Assembly: GCA_016841725.1 (NCBI GenBank)
Contig: JAENYP010000005.1
Location: forward strand, 59,493 to 123,492
Length of the DNA stretch: 64,000 nt
Direction of reading: 5' to 3'
Source of the DNA: Thermincola carboxydiphila
GTDB lineage: Bacteria > Bacillota > Thermincolia > Thermincolales > UBA2595
Shown: one piece after another, positions 58,653-62,729 of the stretch
Numbering within the stretch: position 1 is the stretch's first letter
Layout of the letters: every line of letters begins with the position of its first letter
The notes under the pieces: model-generated
What the model was told of the DNA's origin: nothing
The model's database searches: none
The model's input: only the letters and a program-made list of their open reading frames with translations
Translations under genes and position numbers: made by a program

Positions 58653-59090
58653 ATGGATTTTAAACCCGGAATGCTGTTGGCATTCAATATGGAAAGTGAT
58701 ACTTACGGAGTATGTAAAGTTACCGGTATTACAGAAACCAGTAAAGAACCAATTATCAGTGTCGTTACATACGCAGATTCTTTTGATTCAGTTCCGGAAG
58801 AAGTTAACCCCGCGGAATTGAGGCCCTTGGTTATACATATGCCCATGTATCTTCCTGCTTTGAAGTCTTCTAACTGTAAGGAGATTGGCATGGCTGAGAT
58901 TACCGAGGATGAAGCCAGGGGTTTTGATAACTGGCTGTTGGCATGGAAAGACAGGCGGGCCGGATTTTTCGAAAGGAGCATTCCCGATTCGATAGACTAT
59001 ATTCTCGAACAGATGGCTAATGTAGAAAACAGCACCCCTGAAGATTCGGTTTTCCGCGAGAGACTGATGAGACGCTTTCAGGGACAATAA
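58653..59090 (+). CDS. Hypothetical protein (145 aa)
   Basis: ATG 58653 follows AAGGAGG. The N-terminal half has beta strands (GMLLAFNMESDTYGVCKVTG, ISVVTYADSF) vaguely like Imm26-type immunity proteins. The second half is helical. No toxin gene lies next to it, so the resemblance is not relied on. Confidence 0.6.
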   Translation: MDFKPGMLLAFNMESDTYGVCKVTGITETSKEPIISVVTYADSFDSVPEEVNPAELRPLVIHMPMYLPALKSSNCKEIGMAEITEDEARGFDNWLLAWKDRRAGFFERSIPDSIDYILEQMANVENSTPEDSVFRERLMRRFQGQ

Positions 59091-59100
59091 CAGGCAGCAA

Positions 59101-59138
59101 AACAAGGATGCCCTTTGCTAAGGAGCATCCTTGTTTTT
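59101..59138. terminator. Bidirectional terminator
   Basis: AACAAGGATGC and GCATCCTTGTT form a perfect stem flanked by A- and T-runs, between convergent genes. Confidence 0.88.
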
Positions 59139-59469
59139 AGGTTTTTGCAATACCCATACTGTCAAGTTCTTCGGTTATTTCCATATAGTTCAGACCTGTA
59201 CCGGGCCTGATTATTTTGCCGCCAATGACCAAAAGAGGCAGCTGCATTCCTGACCTTTTTAGGTAATCTTCAATTTCAGGATAATCGTCCAGTTCGTCAT
59301 CGATGACATCAATATATTTTGTGTCAATCATATCGCCATATTTCTTTTTCAGGATTTCACCCAATACCCTGACAGTCTCAGCCTGAGACTGCACGGGTCC
59401 TCACCCGGTACGGCCGCAGTTGTCCAGAATCCGCGAGCCGAAAATCAGGATTTCAACTTTATCTATCAT
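59137..59469 (-). CDS. Thioredoxin-fold selenoprotein candidate (in-frame UGA)
   Basis: ATG 59469 follows GGAGTG by five bases. The frame reads MIDKVEILIFGSRILDNCGR, then TG, TGA (complement 59401-59403), then GPVQSQAETVRVLGEILKK and on to a normal stop: 110 residues if UGA is read. Strand 1 (VEILIFG), then the C-G-x-x-G-U-G-P active-site-like motif, helix, strand 2 (DTKYIDVIDD) and the cis-Pro-type LPLLVIGGKI give a complete thioredoxin fold. Without read-through the protein loses strand 1 and the active site. The hairpin starting 10 bases after the UGA fits a bacterial SECIS. A GTG at 59394 with weak GAGGA could restart translation, which is the main alternative. Confidence 0.75.
59373..59403 (-). 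promoter_or_regulatory. SECIS-like element after in-frame UGA
   Basis: After UGA and nine bases (GGACCCGTG), CAGTCTC-AGGCT-GAGACTG forms a perfect 7-bp stem with loop AGGCU. The loop starts 17 bases after the UGA, within the known bacterial range, and resembles the AGGUCU loop of the E. coli fdhF SECIS that SelB binds. Confidence 0.7.
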
Positions 59470-59495
59470 GATATCACTCCATTTTACCTGAGTAT

Positions 59496-60164
59496 TTATT
59501 CTATATAAGGAACCGGGTCGCTATACCCGGCTTCCCTGAACCCCCGTAGTCTTAACAGGCAGCTGTCACAGGAACCGCATGCCTTTTCTCCGCCCCGATA
59601 GCAGCTTGTAGTCATGTCCAGCGGGGCTCCGTTGGCCATCCCCAGTTTAATAATTTCCCCCTTGGACAGATTGATTAAGGGAGTTTCAACCTTAATTGTC
59701 TTCTGATCCTGTGCTGCGGCCCTGGTAGAGTAATCAGCCAACTGCTGGAACCTTTCGATAAACTCCGGGCGGCAGTCGGGATAACCTGAATAATCCACCG
59801 CATTAACCCCTATATATATCTTTCCCGCATCAAGGACCTCAGCATACCCCAGAGCATAACTCAGAAATATCAGATTCCGCGCCGGAACATAAGTAACCGG
59901 AATATCTTCCCTGGTATCGTCACCGTCAGGAACATCGATATCAGCCGTTAAAGCGCTGCCCCCGATAGCGCCCATATTTGTCGAAATAATCAGGTGCCTG
60001 GTAACACCGTAATATTCCGCTACCCTCTTGGCACATTCTGTTTCCCGGTCATGCCTCTGGCCATACGCAAAACTGATGGGATATATTTCATATCCCTCTT
60101 TTGCGGCCACACTCATACAGACAGTTGAATCCAGTCCCCCTGAAAGCAGGACAACAGCTTTCAT
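59496..60164 (-). CDS. queC: 7-cyano-7-deazaguanine synthase
   Basis: 222 residues. PP-loop VVLLSGGLDSTVCMSVA and C-terminal zinc site SCYRGGEKACGSCDSC identify QueC, which makes preQ0 for queuosine in tRNA. ATG 60164 (AGGGGGA eight bases upstream) replaces the longer frame that starts inside queD. Confidence 0.95.
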   Translation of the reverse strand: MKAVVLLSGGLDSTVCMSVAAKEGYEIYPISFAYGQRHDRETECAKRVAEYYGVTRHLIISTNMGAIGGSALTADIDVPDGDDTREDIPVTYVPARNLIFLSYALGYAEVLDAGKIYIGVNAVDYSGYPDCRPEFIERFQQLADYSTRAAAQDQKTIKVETPLINLSKGEIIKLGMANGAPLDMTTSCYRGGEKACGSCDSCLLRLRGFREAGYSDPVPYIE

Positions 60165-60177
60165 AATTAAAGTCCCC

Positions 60178-60558
60178 CTAAATGTCGTAATATGCTGCAG
60201 AAGCGTTTTCGGATTCCCAGACAGTAACCCTGGCAATGTTCACCTGACCTTGAGTACCGGCCTGCAGCCTGGCTTTCATTTCATCAAAAATCATTTTGGC
60301 AATATTCTCAGCAGTAGGGTTAAGCCGGTCAAAAGGGGGCACGTCATTTATCAGCTTGTGATCAAATATTTCCGTAACCTCTTTAAGGAGCTGCTTGACA
60401 TCCATAAAATCCACCAGGATGCCCAGGTCATTCAACTCGGAACCCGTAAGCCTTATGGCTACCTTCCAGCGGTGTCCGTGGATGTTGGCACACTTACCGG
60501 GGTAACCGCGCAGAAAATGAGCTGCATCAAAATGGCTTACTGCAGATATTTCATACAA
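60178..60558 (-). CDS. queD: 6-carboxy-5,6,7,8-tetrahydropterin synthase
   Basis: 126 residues. HFDAAHFL and the zinc-binding NIHGHRWKV histidines, plus the catalytic Cys in GKCANIHGH and Glu in WESENASA, identify QueD, the first deazaguanine-specific step before QueE and QueC. TTG 60558 follows AAGGTGGG. A promoter lies about 70 bases upstream. queE is not in the window. Confidence 0.93.
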   Translation of the reverse strand: MYEISAVSHFDAAHFLRGYPGKCANIHGHRWKVAIRLTGSELNDLGILVDFMDVKQLLKEVTEIFDHKLINDVPPFDRLNPTAENIAKMIFDEMKARLQAGTQGQVNIARVTVWESENASAAYYDI

Positions 60559-60727: not shown

Positions 60728-60973
60728 TTAACCTCCGCCGACAGGAGGGAAAATACCCACCCTGTCTTTGTTTTTCAGTACCCAGTCATCGGGTCTGGAC
60801 ACCCCGTTTATCAGGCTGATCAGGGAAGTTTTCCGATCAAGACCAAGCATTCCGTGAAGTTCCCTGACTGTAATTTCATCCGGTGCATCCAGGTAAAATT
60901 CCTGTTTCCCGAAACAGGGGAGTTCCTGATTATTGCATTTTAGTCCGGTGAACAGCCTTATTTCCAGTTCCAC
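60728..60973 (-). CDS. MoaD/ThiS-like sulfur carrier
   Basis: 81 residues of the ubiquitin-like fold ending in PPVGGG, the C-terminal Gly-Gly that is adenylated and thiocarboxylated. GTG 60973 follows GGAGGTG. It lies 32 bases after the AOR gene, suggesting service to the tungsten/molybdenum pterin of that enzyme. Confidence 0.9.
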   Translation of the reverse strand: MELEIRLFTGLKCNNQELPCFGKQEFYLDAPDEITVRELHGMLGLDRKTSLISLINGVSRPDDWVLKNKDRVGIFPPVGGG

Positions 60974-61004: not shown

Positions 61005-62729
61005 TTAGAAGTTCCAGAATGAGTCAATTTCTTCATCTGTAAAGTCCCAAATAGCATCATGGGGCGGGCAGGTTTCCCTCTTGAAGAATTCAGGCAGGCG
61101 GTCATGTTTGGCTGTAAACCCGGCGCCCTGGTTAAACGCACGTTCGGTCTTAAGTACGGTTTTACCCAGCTCTGTCACGTCATCAGCAGTCATGCTCAGA
61201 CCGTACTGGGCGTTGAGCATATCGATAATTGCCTGGAAGGCCTCGGCATTATCAAGGATACAGAAGGCCACAAACAGGCACAGGCCGGTACTGTCAACAG
61301 CAGCGGTAGCGATCTGCAGGTTTCGCGACAGATCGATGTTACCTTCTTTGACCAGGGGATTAATGTCCCCGCCGACCTTCAGAATATTGGTTGCCACCGA
61401 ATAACCCGCGGTATGGTCTGCACCCATGGTAGTAGTTGCATAGGTAATACCTATTCCCTTAACTGCTCTGGGATCATATGCAGGAATCGCCTGTCCCTTG
61501 ACAGCAGGCACTCTGGTTACCCCAAAGGCTTTACCGGTAAACTCAGCGCCATTTCCCAAAATCCTTCCCAGATAAGTTCCCTTTTCAATTTCACCCAACA
61601 GGTTCAGCATCCCCTGTCCGTCTCCAAAGGGAGAAACACCGCCTTCCATGGCCACACCTATGGTGACTGCAGTCTCAATAGTATCTATACCAATATCGTC
61701 ACAAATTCGGTCAGCCTGGGCGATAATATCAAGGTCGTCAATACAGCAGTCTGCGCCAAAGGCCCAGATTGTTTCATATTCAAAACCGGAGGTCACATAA
61801 TTACCGTCCTTATCGTTATAGACCTGGGAGCACCTGATAACACAACCGGGATGGCATGCATGAGTAGGTTTTCCGTTTCTGCTGACAATTATGTCATGCA
61901 TTGTTTCCCCACCGATTTTGTTTGCCCCTTTAAAGCGGCCTGCACTGAAGTTCATTGTCGGAAGACCGCCGGCCTCATTGACTATGTTAACTAAAACATC
62001 GGTACCATATGTCGGCAGTCCCTGCCCGGTAACCGGGTGCTCAGTCAGTCCCTTGGCAAAAACCCTGGCTGCCTCTTTGAACTTCTCGGGGTCAGCCACA
62101 GATACCCCGGGAGCATCTGTATCATCGATAGTAATATATTTAATTTTTTTGGAGCCCATAACCGCTCCCAGACCGCCGCGTCCCGCACTGCGCAGGCCGC
62201 CGTCGGGGTCCTTGACAGAAATGTTGGCTGACAGCATCTTGCGTTCCCCGGCCTGGCCAATTGTCATTACACCGATTTTTTCGTTGAATTTTTCGTTCAG
62301 TTTCTTGACAACTTCATAGTTGCCCTTTCCGACAAGGACTTGGTCCTCCTCAAGCTTAACCCCGTTTTTATCCACATGAAGGCAGTAAAAACCATCCCCC
62401 TGGGGCTGGCCTTCAATAACAATCGCCTTTACTCCCAGCCTGGCCAGTTTCTGGGATGCCGTACCACCAACGTTGCTCTCCTTGATAGTCCCGGTAAGGG
62501 GGCTTTTCGCTCCTACCGACATCCTCCCAGAGCTTGGAGCAGTCGTCCCTGACAGGAGTCCAGGGGCAAATACCAGTTTATTATTGGGCCCCAGCGCATG
62601 GCAGGTAGGCTCAACCTCTTTGGCAACTATAGCCGATGTCAGAGCTCTTCCCCCAAAGCCCTGCAACTCCTGAGGAACATCCTCAGCAGTAACCGTCTGG
62701 TTTGTCATGTTGACACGGAAAATTTTCAT
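61005..62729 (-). CDS. aor: Tungsten-type aldehyde:ferredoxin oxidoreductase
   Basis: 574 residues. N-terminal domain GFGGRALTSAIVAKEV and SGRMSVGAKSPLTG bind the bis-pterin cofactor. The 4Fe-4S site is HACHPGCVIRC plus a later Cys (DSTGLCLFVAF). Such enzymes oxidise aldehydes to acids with ferredoxin, or run in reverse. The length is slightly below the usual 600. ATG 62729 follows GGAGG. A structured leader precedes it. Confidence 0.93.
   Translation of the reverse strand: MKIFRVNMTNQTVTAEDVPQELQGFGGRALTSAIVAKEVEPTCHALGPNNKLVFAPGLLSGTTAPSSGRMSVGAKSPLTGTIKESNVGGTASQKLARLGVKAIVIEGQPQGDGFYCLHVDKNGVKLEEDQVLVGKGNYEVVKKLNEKFNEKIGVMTIGQAGERKMLSANISVKDPDGGLRSAGRGGLGAVMGSKKIKYITIDDTDAPGVSVADPEKFKEAARVFAKGLTEHPVTGQGLPTYGTDVLVNIVNEAGGLPTMNFSAGRFKGANKIGGETMHDIIVSRNGKPTHACHPGCVIRCSQVYNDKDGNYVTSGFEYETIWAFGADCCIDDLDIIAQADRICDDIGIDTIETAVTIGVAMEGGVSPFGDGQGMLNLLGEIEKGTYLGRILGNGAEFTGKAFGVTRVPAVKGQAIPAYDPRAVKGIGITYATTTMGADHTAGYSVATNILKVGGDINPLVKEGNIDLSRNLQIATAAVDSTGLCLFVAFCILDNAEAFQAIIDMLNAQYGLSMTADDVTELGKTVLKTERAFNQGAGFTAKHDRLPEFFKRETCPPHDAIWDFTDEEIDSFWNF

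Follow-up and report, generated by a model that had tools for sequence, protein, structure and literature searches.

Closest described systems

Two thioredoxin-fold families are the closest described relatives of the protein reported here. The first is DUF1462/YuzD (PF07315), represented by S. aureus SA0798 (PDB 1XG8), which has the fold in common with it and carries a C-A-S-C (CxxC) motif whose second cysteine aligns with residue 23 (U23) of the new protein. DUF1462 proteins have cysteine, whereas the new family has C-x4-U with G-P after the U. The second is the arsenite metallochaperone ArsD (PF06953, NF033727; PDB 3MWH, 3KGK, 3KTB), which has the same fold and the C-x4-C/U-G-P spacing. The adjacent Cys pair of ArsD is missing from the new family, Sec would take the place of the third ArsD cysteine, and no ars genes lie nearby. 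In the literature searched, no paper tied DUF1462, YuzD or ArsD to selenocysteine, and a single paper mentioned DUF1462, as a member of the thioredoxin clan.

Small thioredoxin-fold proteins with an active-site Sec and a bSECIS are also known, such as Sec-Trx, Sec-Grx, SaoT, the HUIPC-motif proteins, UXX-star and Trx-like Sec.1/Sec.2 (Table 1, PMC13188914). These likewise differ from the protein described here, as they belong to other families and have the motifs UxxC, CxxU, CxU and UxC (PMC13188914).

The locus

The window is the whole 64,000-nucleotide stretch of Thermincola carboxydiphila DNA that was analysed, and positions are counted within it. Its features around the gene of interest are as follows.

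59137..59469, minus strand: predicted selenoprotein gene, TAA stop included, for a 110-aa thioredoxin-fold protein with Sec at residue 23 (from the frame, homologues and pN/pS)
59401..59403, minus strand: in-frame UGA, predicted to be read as selenocysteine, U23 of C18-x4-U23-G-P (UGA in 26 homologous sequences, Cys in L088 and L104)
59477..59480, minus strand: ribosome-binding site GGAG, 7 bases before the ATG (from the sequence)
59373..59391, minus strand: predicted bSECIS hairpin CAGTCTC-AGGCT-GAGACTG (from folding, covariation and synonymous recoding)
59099..59136, minus strand: intrinsic terminator-like hairpin ACAAGGATGC...GCATCCTTGTTTT, directly 3' of the stop codon (from the sequence)
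59496..60236, minus strand: queC (7-cyano-7-deazaguanine synthase), directly upstream with a 26 bp gap, a neighbour in 6/6 orthologous loci
60178..60558, minus strand: queD (6-carboxytetrahydropterin synthase), a conserved neighbour

The frame runs from the ATG at 59469-59467 to the TAA at 59137-59139, 110 codons with a single in-frame UGA at codon 23, and its 110-aa read-through product begins MIDKVEILIFGSRILDNCGRTGUGPVQSQ... The initial annotation had described a good ribosome site and ATG, one in-frame TGA at the thioredoxin active site and an open frame on both sides of it. All of this holds: GGAG at 59480-59477 precedes the ATG with a spacing of 7 bases, the TGA at 59401-59403 lies within C-x4-U-G-P, and the 110-codon frame is under purifying selection before and after the TGA.

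All six orthologous loci have the order queD-queC-selenoprotein, the genes being about -1 to 26 bp apart. Cotranscription of the gene with queDC may have a meaning or be incidental; we infer that the terminator-like hairpin at 59099..59136 closes the transcription unit. The three closest genomes have an aldehyde:ferredoxin oxidoreductase gene (window 61005-62729) and a MoaD-like gene (60728-60973) directly upstream of queD. On the other side, a gene for a conserved protein of 145 aa (window 58653-59090) faces the selenoprotein gene and is found at four of the loci; searches of Pfam and NCBIfam with this protein gave zero matches.

Fold and family

The AlphaFold2 model of the window protein has a pLDDT of 84, falling to 65-69 around residues 11-30, which is the active-site region. 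Its best PDB matches are ArsD, the DUF1462 protein 1XG8 and thioredoxins. The predicted order of elements is beta-alpha-beta-alpha-beta-beta-alpha (E5-11, H29-47, E48-54, H58-73, E79-82, E85-89, H95-104), and, as in the thioredoxin fold, the active-site Cys/Sec follows strand 1 and a conserved proline (P78, invariant) precedes strand 3.

A profile of 21 family members matches 1XG8 over its whole length (E 4.9e-8), and 16 of the 21 match Pfam DUF1462 (PF07315), the best at 2e-8. The window protein itself scores 19.3 bits against a PF07315 gathering score of 25. The ArsD cysteine pair (CC-x4-C-G-P) was also sought in the family, and one Cys only was found before the C-x4-U spacing. Since the DUF1462 score falls below its cut-off and the ArsD Cys pair is missing, the protein, though homologous to DUF1462, is a member of neither family by their own rules. 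The family that the initial annotation could not name is a thioredoxin-fold family between DUF1462/YuzD and ArsD.

Against NCBIfam (20.0) the window protein had no match above noise, and the table of a 2026 review, with 119 selenoprotein families, has no counterpart of it. The families of Haft and Gwadz 2023 and of Haft and Tolstoy 2025 were compared through NCBIfam and Table 1 of that review. Judged by these comparisons, the predicted protein represents a selenoprotein family absent from the 119-family list of 2026 and from NCBIfam 20.0.

Paralogues and proposed function

Paralogues with 37-42% identity to the window gene have redox genes for neighbours, where the window gene itself has queC and queD. 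At six of the paralogous loci a gene for thioredoxin reductase (TIGR01292, over cut-off) stands upstream in the same orientation; the paralogues downstream of it are L055, in the same genome as the window gene, and homologues in G001, G002, G005, G009 and G025. Between the reductase and the paralogue are either a ferredoxin-like gene or an FmdB-like gene of the zinc-ribbon type, together with a tiny gene that is conserved. The protein from this tiny gene (..KQRWPAHSVKPQMIEEMERIEDEIE..) is encoded directly upstream of the selenoprotein in the thioredoxin reductase clusters at L055, L056, L057, L058 and L069, and Pfam and NCBIfam searches with it returned zero matches. The L058 cluster also has a gene for a rhodanese lipoprotein. 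Upstream of that part of the operon which holds the ferredoxin or FmdB/selenoprotein genes, a palindrome lies near a -35/-10-like promoter:

L055:5337-5973, L056, L057, L058, L069: palindrome ATACCCC(N2-3)GGGGTAT

We regard it as likely that the gene at window 59137-59469 encodes a selenoprotein that is a small redoxin linked to thioredoxin reductase. The parts of this explanation differ in strength: we have hardly any doubt that Sec would be inserted at the window's UGA, and we lean towards the redoxin role and its reductant. The hairpin with the AGGCU loop would direct SelB and Sec-tRNA to read the UGA at codon 23 as selenocysteine. The product would be a single-domain thioredoxin-fold protein of 110 residues related to DUF1462/YuzD and ArsD. 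Its predicted active site, C18-x4-U23-G-P, would lie in the loop after strand 1 and face a conserved LP loop of the cis-Pro type (L77-P78). A reversible selenenylsulfide most likely forms between C18 and U23, so that the window protein may act as a small redoxin. It would reduce disulfides or other oxidised substrates and be re-reduced by thioredoxin reductase; we infer this last link from the gene adjacency of the paralogues.

The main rival function for the same selenoprotein, which we think unlikely, is that of an ArsD-like metal(loid) chaperone or sensor in which C18 and U23 bind soft metals, As(III), Hg(II) or Cu(I) for example, and there is no selenenylsulfide cycling. The CC-x4-C-G-P spacing of ArsD equals that of C-x4-U-G-P, structures of ArsD rank with the best fold matches, 13 of the 21 members hit the Pfam ArsD model (best 1.8e-5), and a profile comparison with ArsD sequences from related genomes gave 96% probability. 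The palindrome ATACCCCTAGGGGGTAT upstream of the paralogue's operon, which we take to resemble CsoR/CstR-type operators, also counts in favour of this reading. However, the family lacks the first cysteine of ArsD's CC pair, and the recurrent neighbours of the paralogues are thioredoxin reductase and a ferredoxin-like gene. There is no arsA, arsB or other arsenic gene around the loci examined, and near the window gene, where arsenite efflux genes were looked for, the neighbours are queC, queD, the MoaD-like gene and the aldehyde:ferredoxin oxidoreductase gene.

Returning to the redoxin, its paralogues may have a partner. An FmdB-like gene lies beside the selenoprotein gene in G000, G001, G002, G005, G009, G025, G013 and G059. 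Its own frame carries a UGA at or close to the last codon but one (..FGUG-stop), and a GG-loop hairpin stands immediately 3' of the stop. FmdB-like proteins ending in FG-U-G-stop occur in many genera (L125 at G000:C10:82176-82385, L123-L134, L137, L138, L140-L142). They belong to the same zinc-ribbon family, TIGR02605, as the FmdB-family selenoprotein from GOS, which has the motif CxxU (PMC2398784); in the neighbour the UGA is instead at or next to the penultimate codon and the hairpin comes after the stop. The FmdB-like protein is probably a second selenoprotein, distinct from the GOS form, and its ending recalls the C-terminal -GCUG of animal thioredoxin reductase. It is possible, and we offer it tentatively, that the family is one arm of an undescribed electron chain with two selenoproteins, running from thioredoxin reductase to the C-x4-U redoxin and to or through the FmdB-like Sec protein, with Sec having moved between two sites of the same fold.

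Conservation of the UGA

Homologues were found in 32 of 149 relatives, most of them with exactly one in-frame TGA, and a phylum-wide search gave matches in 73 of 398 genomes. A scan of genome contigs with the single window protein found only two near relatives, and a plasmid search for the family gave no match. The match L025/L095 (G097) starts at residue 29, lacks the active site and was left out as a degenerate copy.

The initial annotation had named three refuting outcomes, and none of them was found. Two concern homologues, whether they align across the UGA and which residue they carry there. They do align, and most keep the UGA: it is present at the U23 site in 26 translated homologous sequences, within the motif FGSRxxDxC-x4-U-G-P and close variants. 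Where the codon is not UGA it is Cys, in L088 (GGCGP) and in both tandem copies of L104 (CASC-GG and CSGC-QTG). In a second group, the U23 site is Cys (CGP) and a U or C stands a few residues upstream (GGUxC...CGP); this upstream residue is U in L024, L031 and L032 and C in L039 and L096. A UGA at this other site of the same loop was seen in L024, L028, L031, L032, L033, L034 and L038. A tree of 45 sequences needs no fewer than 9 changes of the Cys label, of which well-supported branches force 5, and there are several independent Sec/Cys exchanges. Sec appears to have moved within one fold between the GG-U-x-C upstream site and the U-G-P site, depending on lineage.

It is very improbable that the UGA is an ordinary stop, with a protein of 85 aa starting at the GTG at 59394 and the 22 upstream codons left as leader or remnant, even though that 85-aa ORF is what a standard gene caller would annotate. 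The upstream F-G-S-R-x-x-D-x-C segment has key residues that are invariant across the family, and a good ribosome site precedes the ATG at 59469. Among the six queDC-linked orthologues, pN/pS is 0.19-0.49 before the UGA and 0.14-0.27 after it, below 0.5 on either side for every pair, which indicates that both sides are under purifying selection as protein. The codon is UGA and never UAA or UAG, and the Cys homologues L088, L104, L039 and L096 translate straight through. An ordinary stop with an internal start is ruled out by the Cys homologues and by the upstream coding region, which is conserved.

A sequencing error, or decay to a pseudogene, at a codon that was originally Cys would take one point change from TGT/TGC to TGA and is less probable still. 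It is ruled out by the conservation of the same TGA in 22 genomes or more, among orthologues as far apart as 64% identity, and opposed by the low pN/pS after the TGA and the covarying hairpin.

The SECIS hairpin

The bacterial SECIS model has a loop of 3-9 nt, a stem of 4-16 bp, a spacing of 16-37 and an MFE of -7.5 or lower, with a G in the first two loop positions, an N1-G-G-N-N2 pattern and N1-N2 pairing (PMC13188914). The hairpin of the window gene satisfies every rule of this model. As the initial annotation had claimed, it is perfect and has an AGGCT (AGGCU) loop; its stem is 7 bp long. The claim that it starts 17 bases after the UGA is right for the loop, which begins at base 17 with 16 bases between the UGA and the apical loop, and wrong for the stem, which begins about 10 bases after the UGA. 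The 47 bases following the UGA have an MFE of -19.8 kcal/mol. The hairpin exceeds what chance would give: when the same residues were recoded synonymously, 98.7% of the recodings folded more weakly, and a SECIS-like hairpin as good was rarely reached (p = 0.010).

The structure is conserved across the family. In an alignment of 20 sequences 91.4% of cells are paired and three pairs have double-sided changes, with 17 double-sided cells observed vs 5.5 in shuffles (0/500); slid controls were far worse. The outer pairs covary (GC/AU/GU and AU/GC/CG/UA). Folding energy after the UGA has a mean z of -1.9 against synonymous recoding, compared with -0.07 for control windows in the same genes. For hairpins fitting the SECIS model, the combined p against recoding is 4.4e-12 over 14 representatives of the U-G-P group and only 0.017 in the group with the upstream U. 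In some UGA-bearing relatives of the upstream-Sec type, L031 among them, a convincing SECIS was looked for and none was seen. In L018 and L020 the usual hairpin is weak and there is another, CTCACC-GGTyT-GGTGAG, with its loop about 30 bases after the UGA; this alternative seems to have taken over the SECIS role.

Selenocysteine machinery

The sel genes that the initial annotation proposed to look for are present in the Thermincola genome. Its tRNA-Sec scores 71.7 bits vs a cut-off of 47, SelB is over cut-off, SelA is present, and two SelD genes are over cut-off, each with its own in-frame TGA. SelA is over cut-off in all 32 of the homologue-bearing relatives vs 73 of 117 others (Fisher p 4e-6), and every UGA-bearing genome examined has SelA and/or SelB. 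In G391, the genome of the Cys-form L104, neither SelA nor SelB is over cut-off. The SelA of G175 is split into two fragments, of which one lies at a contig end, and that genome has SelB. G330 is UGA-bearing and SelA was not detected there, which by itself would speak against Sec; its SelB is over cut-off, which makes a missed or unassembled selA the likelier reading.

Sec incorporation in the window gene, proposed in the initial annotation, is strongly supported by the UGA and Cys homologues, the hairpin covariation and the Sec machinery. The gene almost certainly encodes a selenium-containing redox protein, because its relatives in a wide range of anaerobic bacteria keep the same UGA, the same RNA hairpin, or a cysteine in the UGA's place.

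Significance

Calling UGA as a stop leads to systematic mis-annotation of selenoproteins, and standard annotation would cut the window selenoprotein to an 85-aa fragment. A thioredoxin-fold selenoprotein family across many Firmicutes families enlarges the selenoproteome. With Sec and Cys forms of one fold and two alternative Sec sites, it is a natural series in which the reasons for using Sec can be tested. Thioredoxin reductase and a second gene with a UGA are associated with the family, which points to a redox pathway of anaerobes that has yet to be studied.
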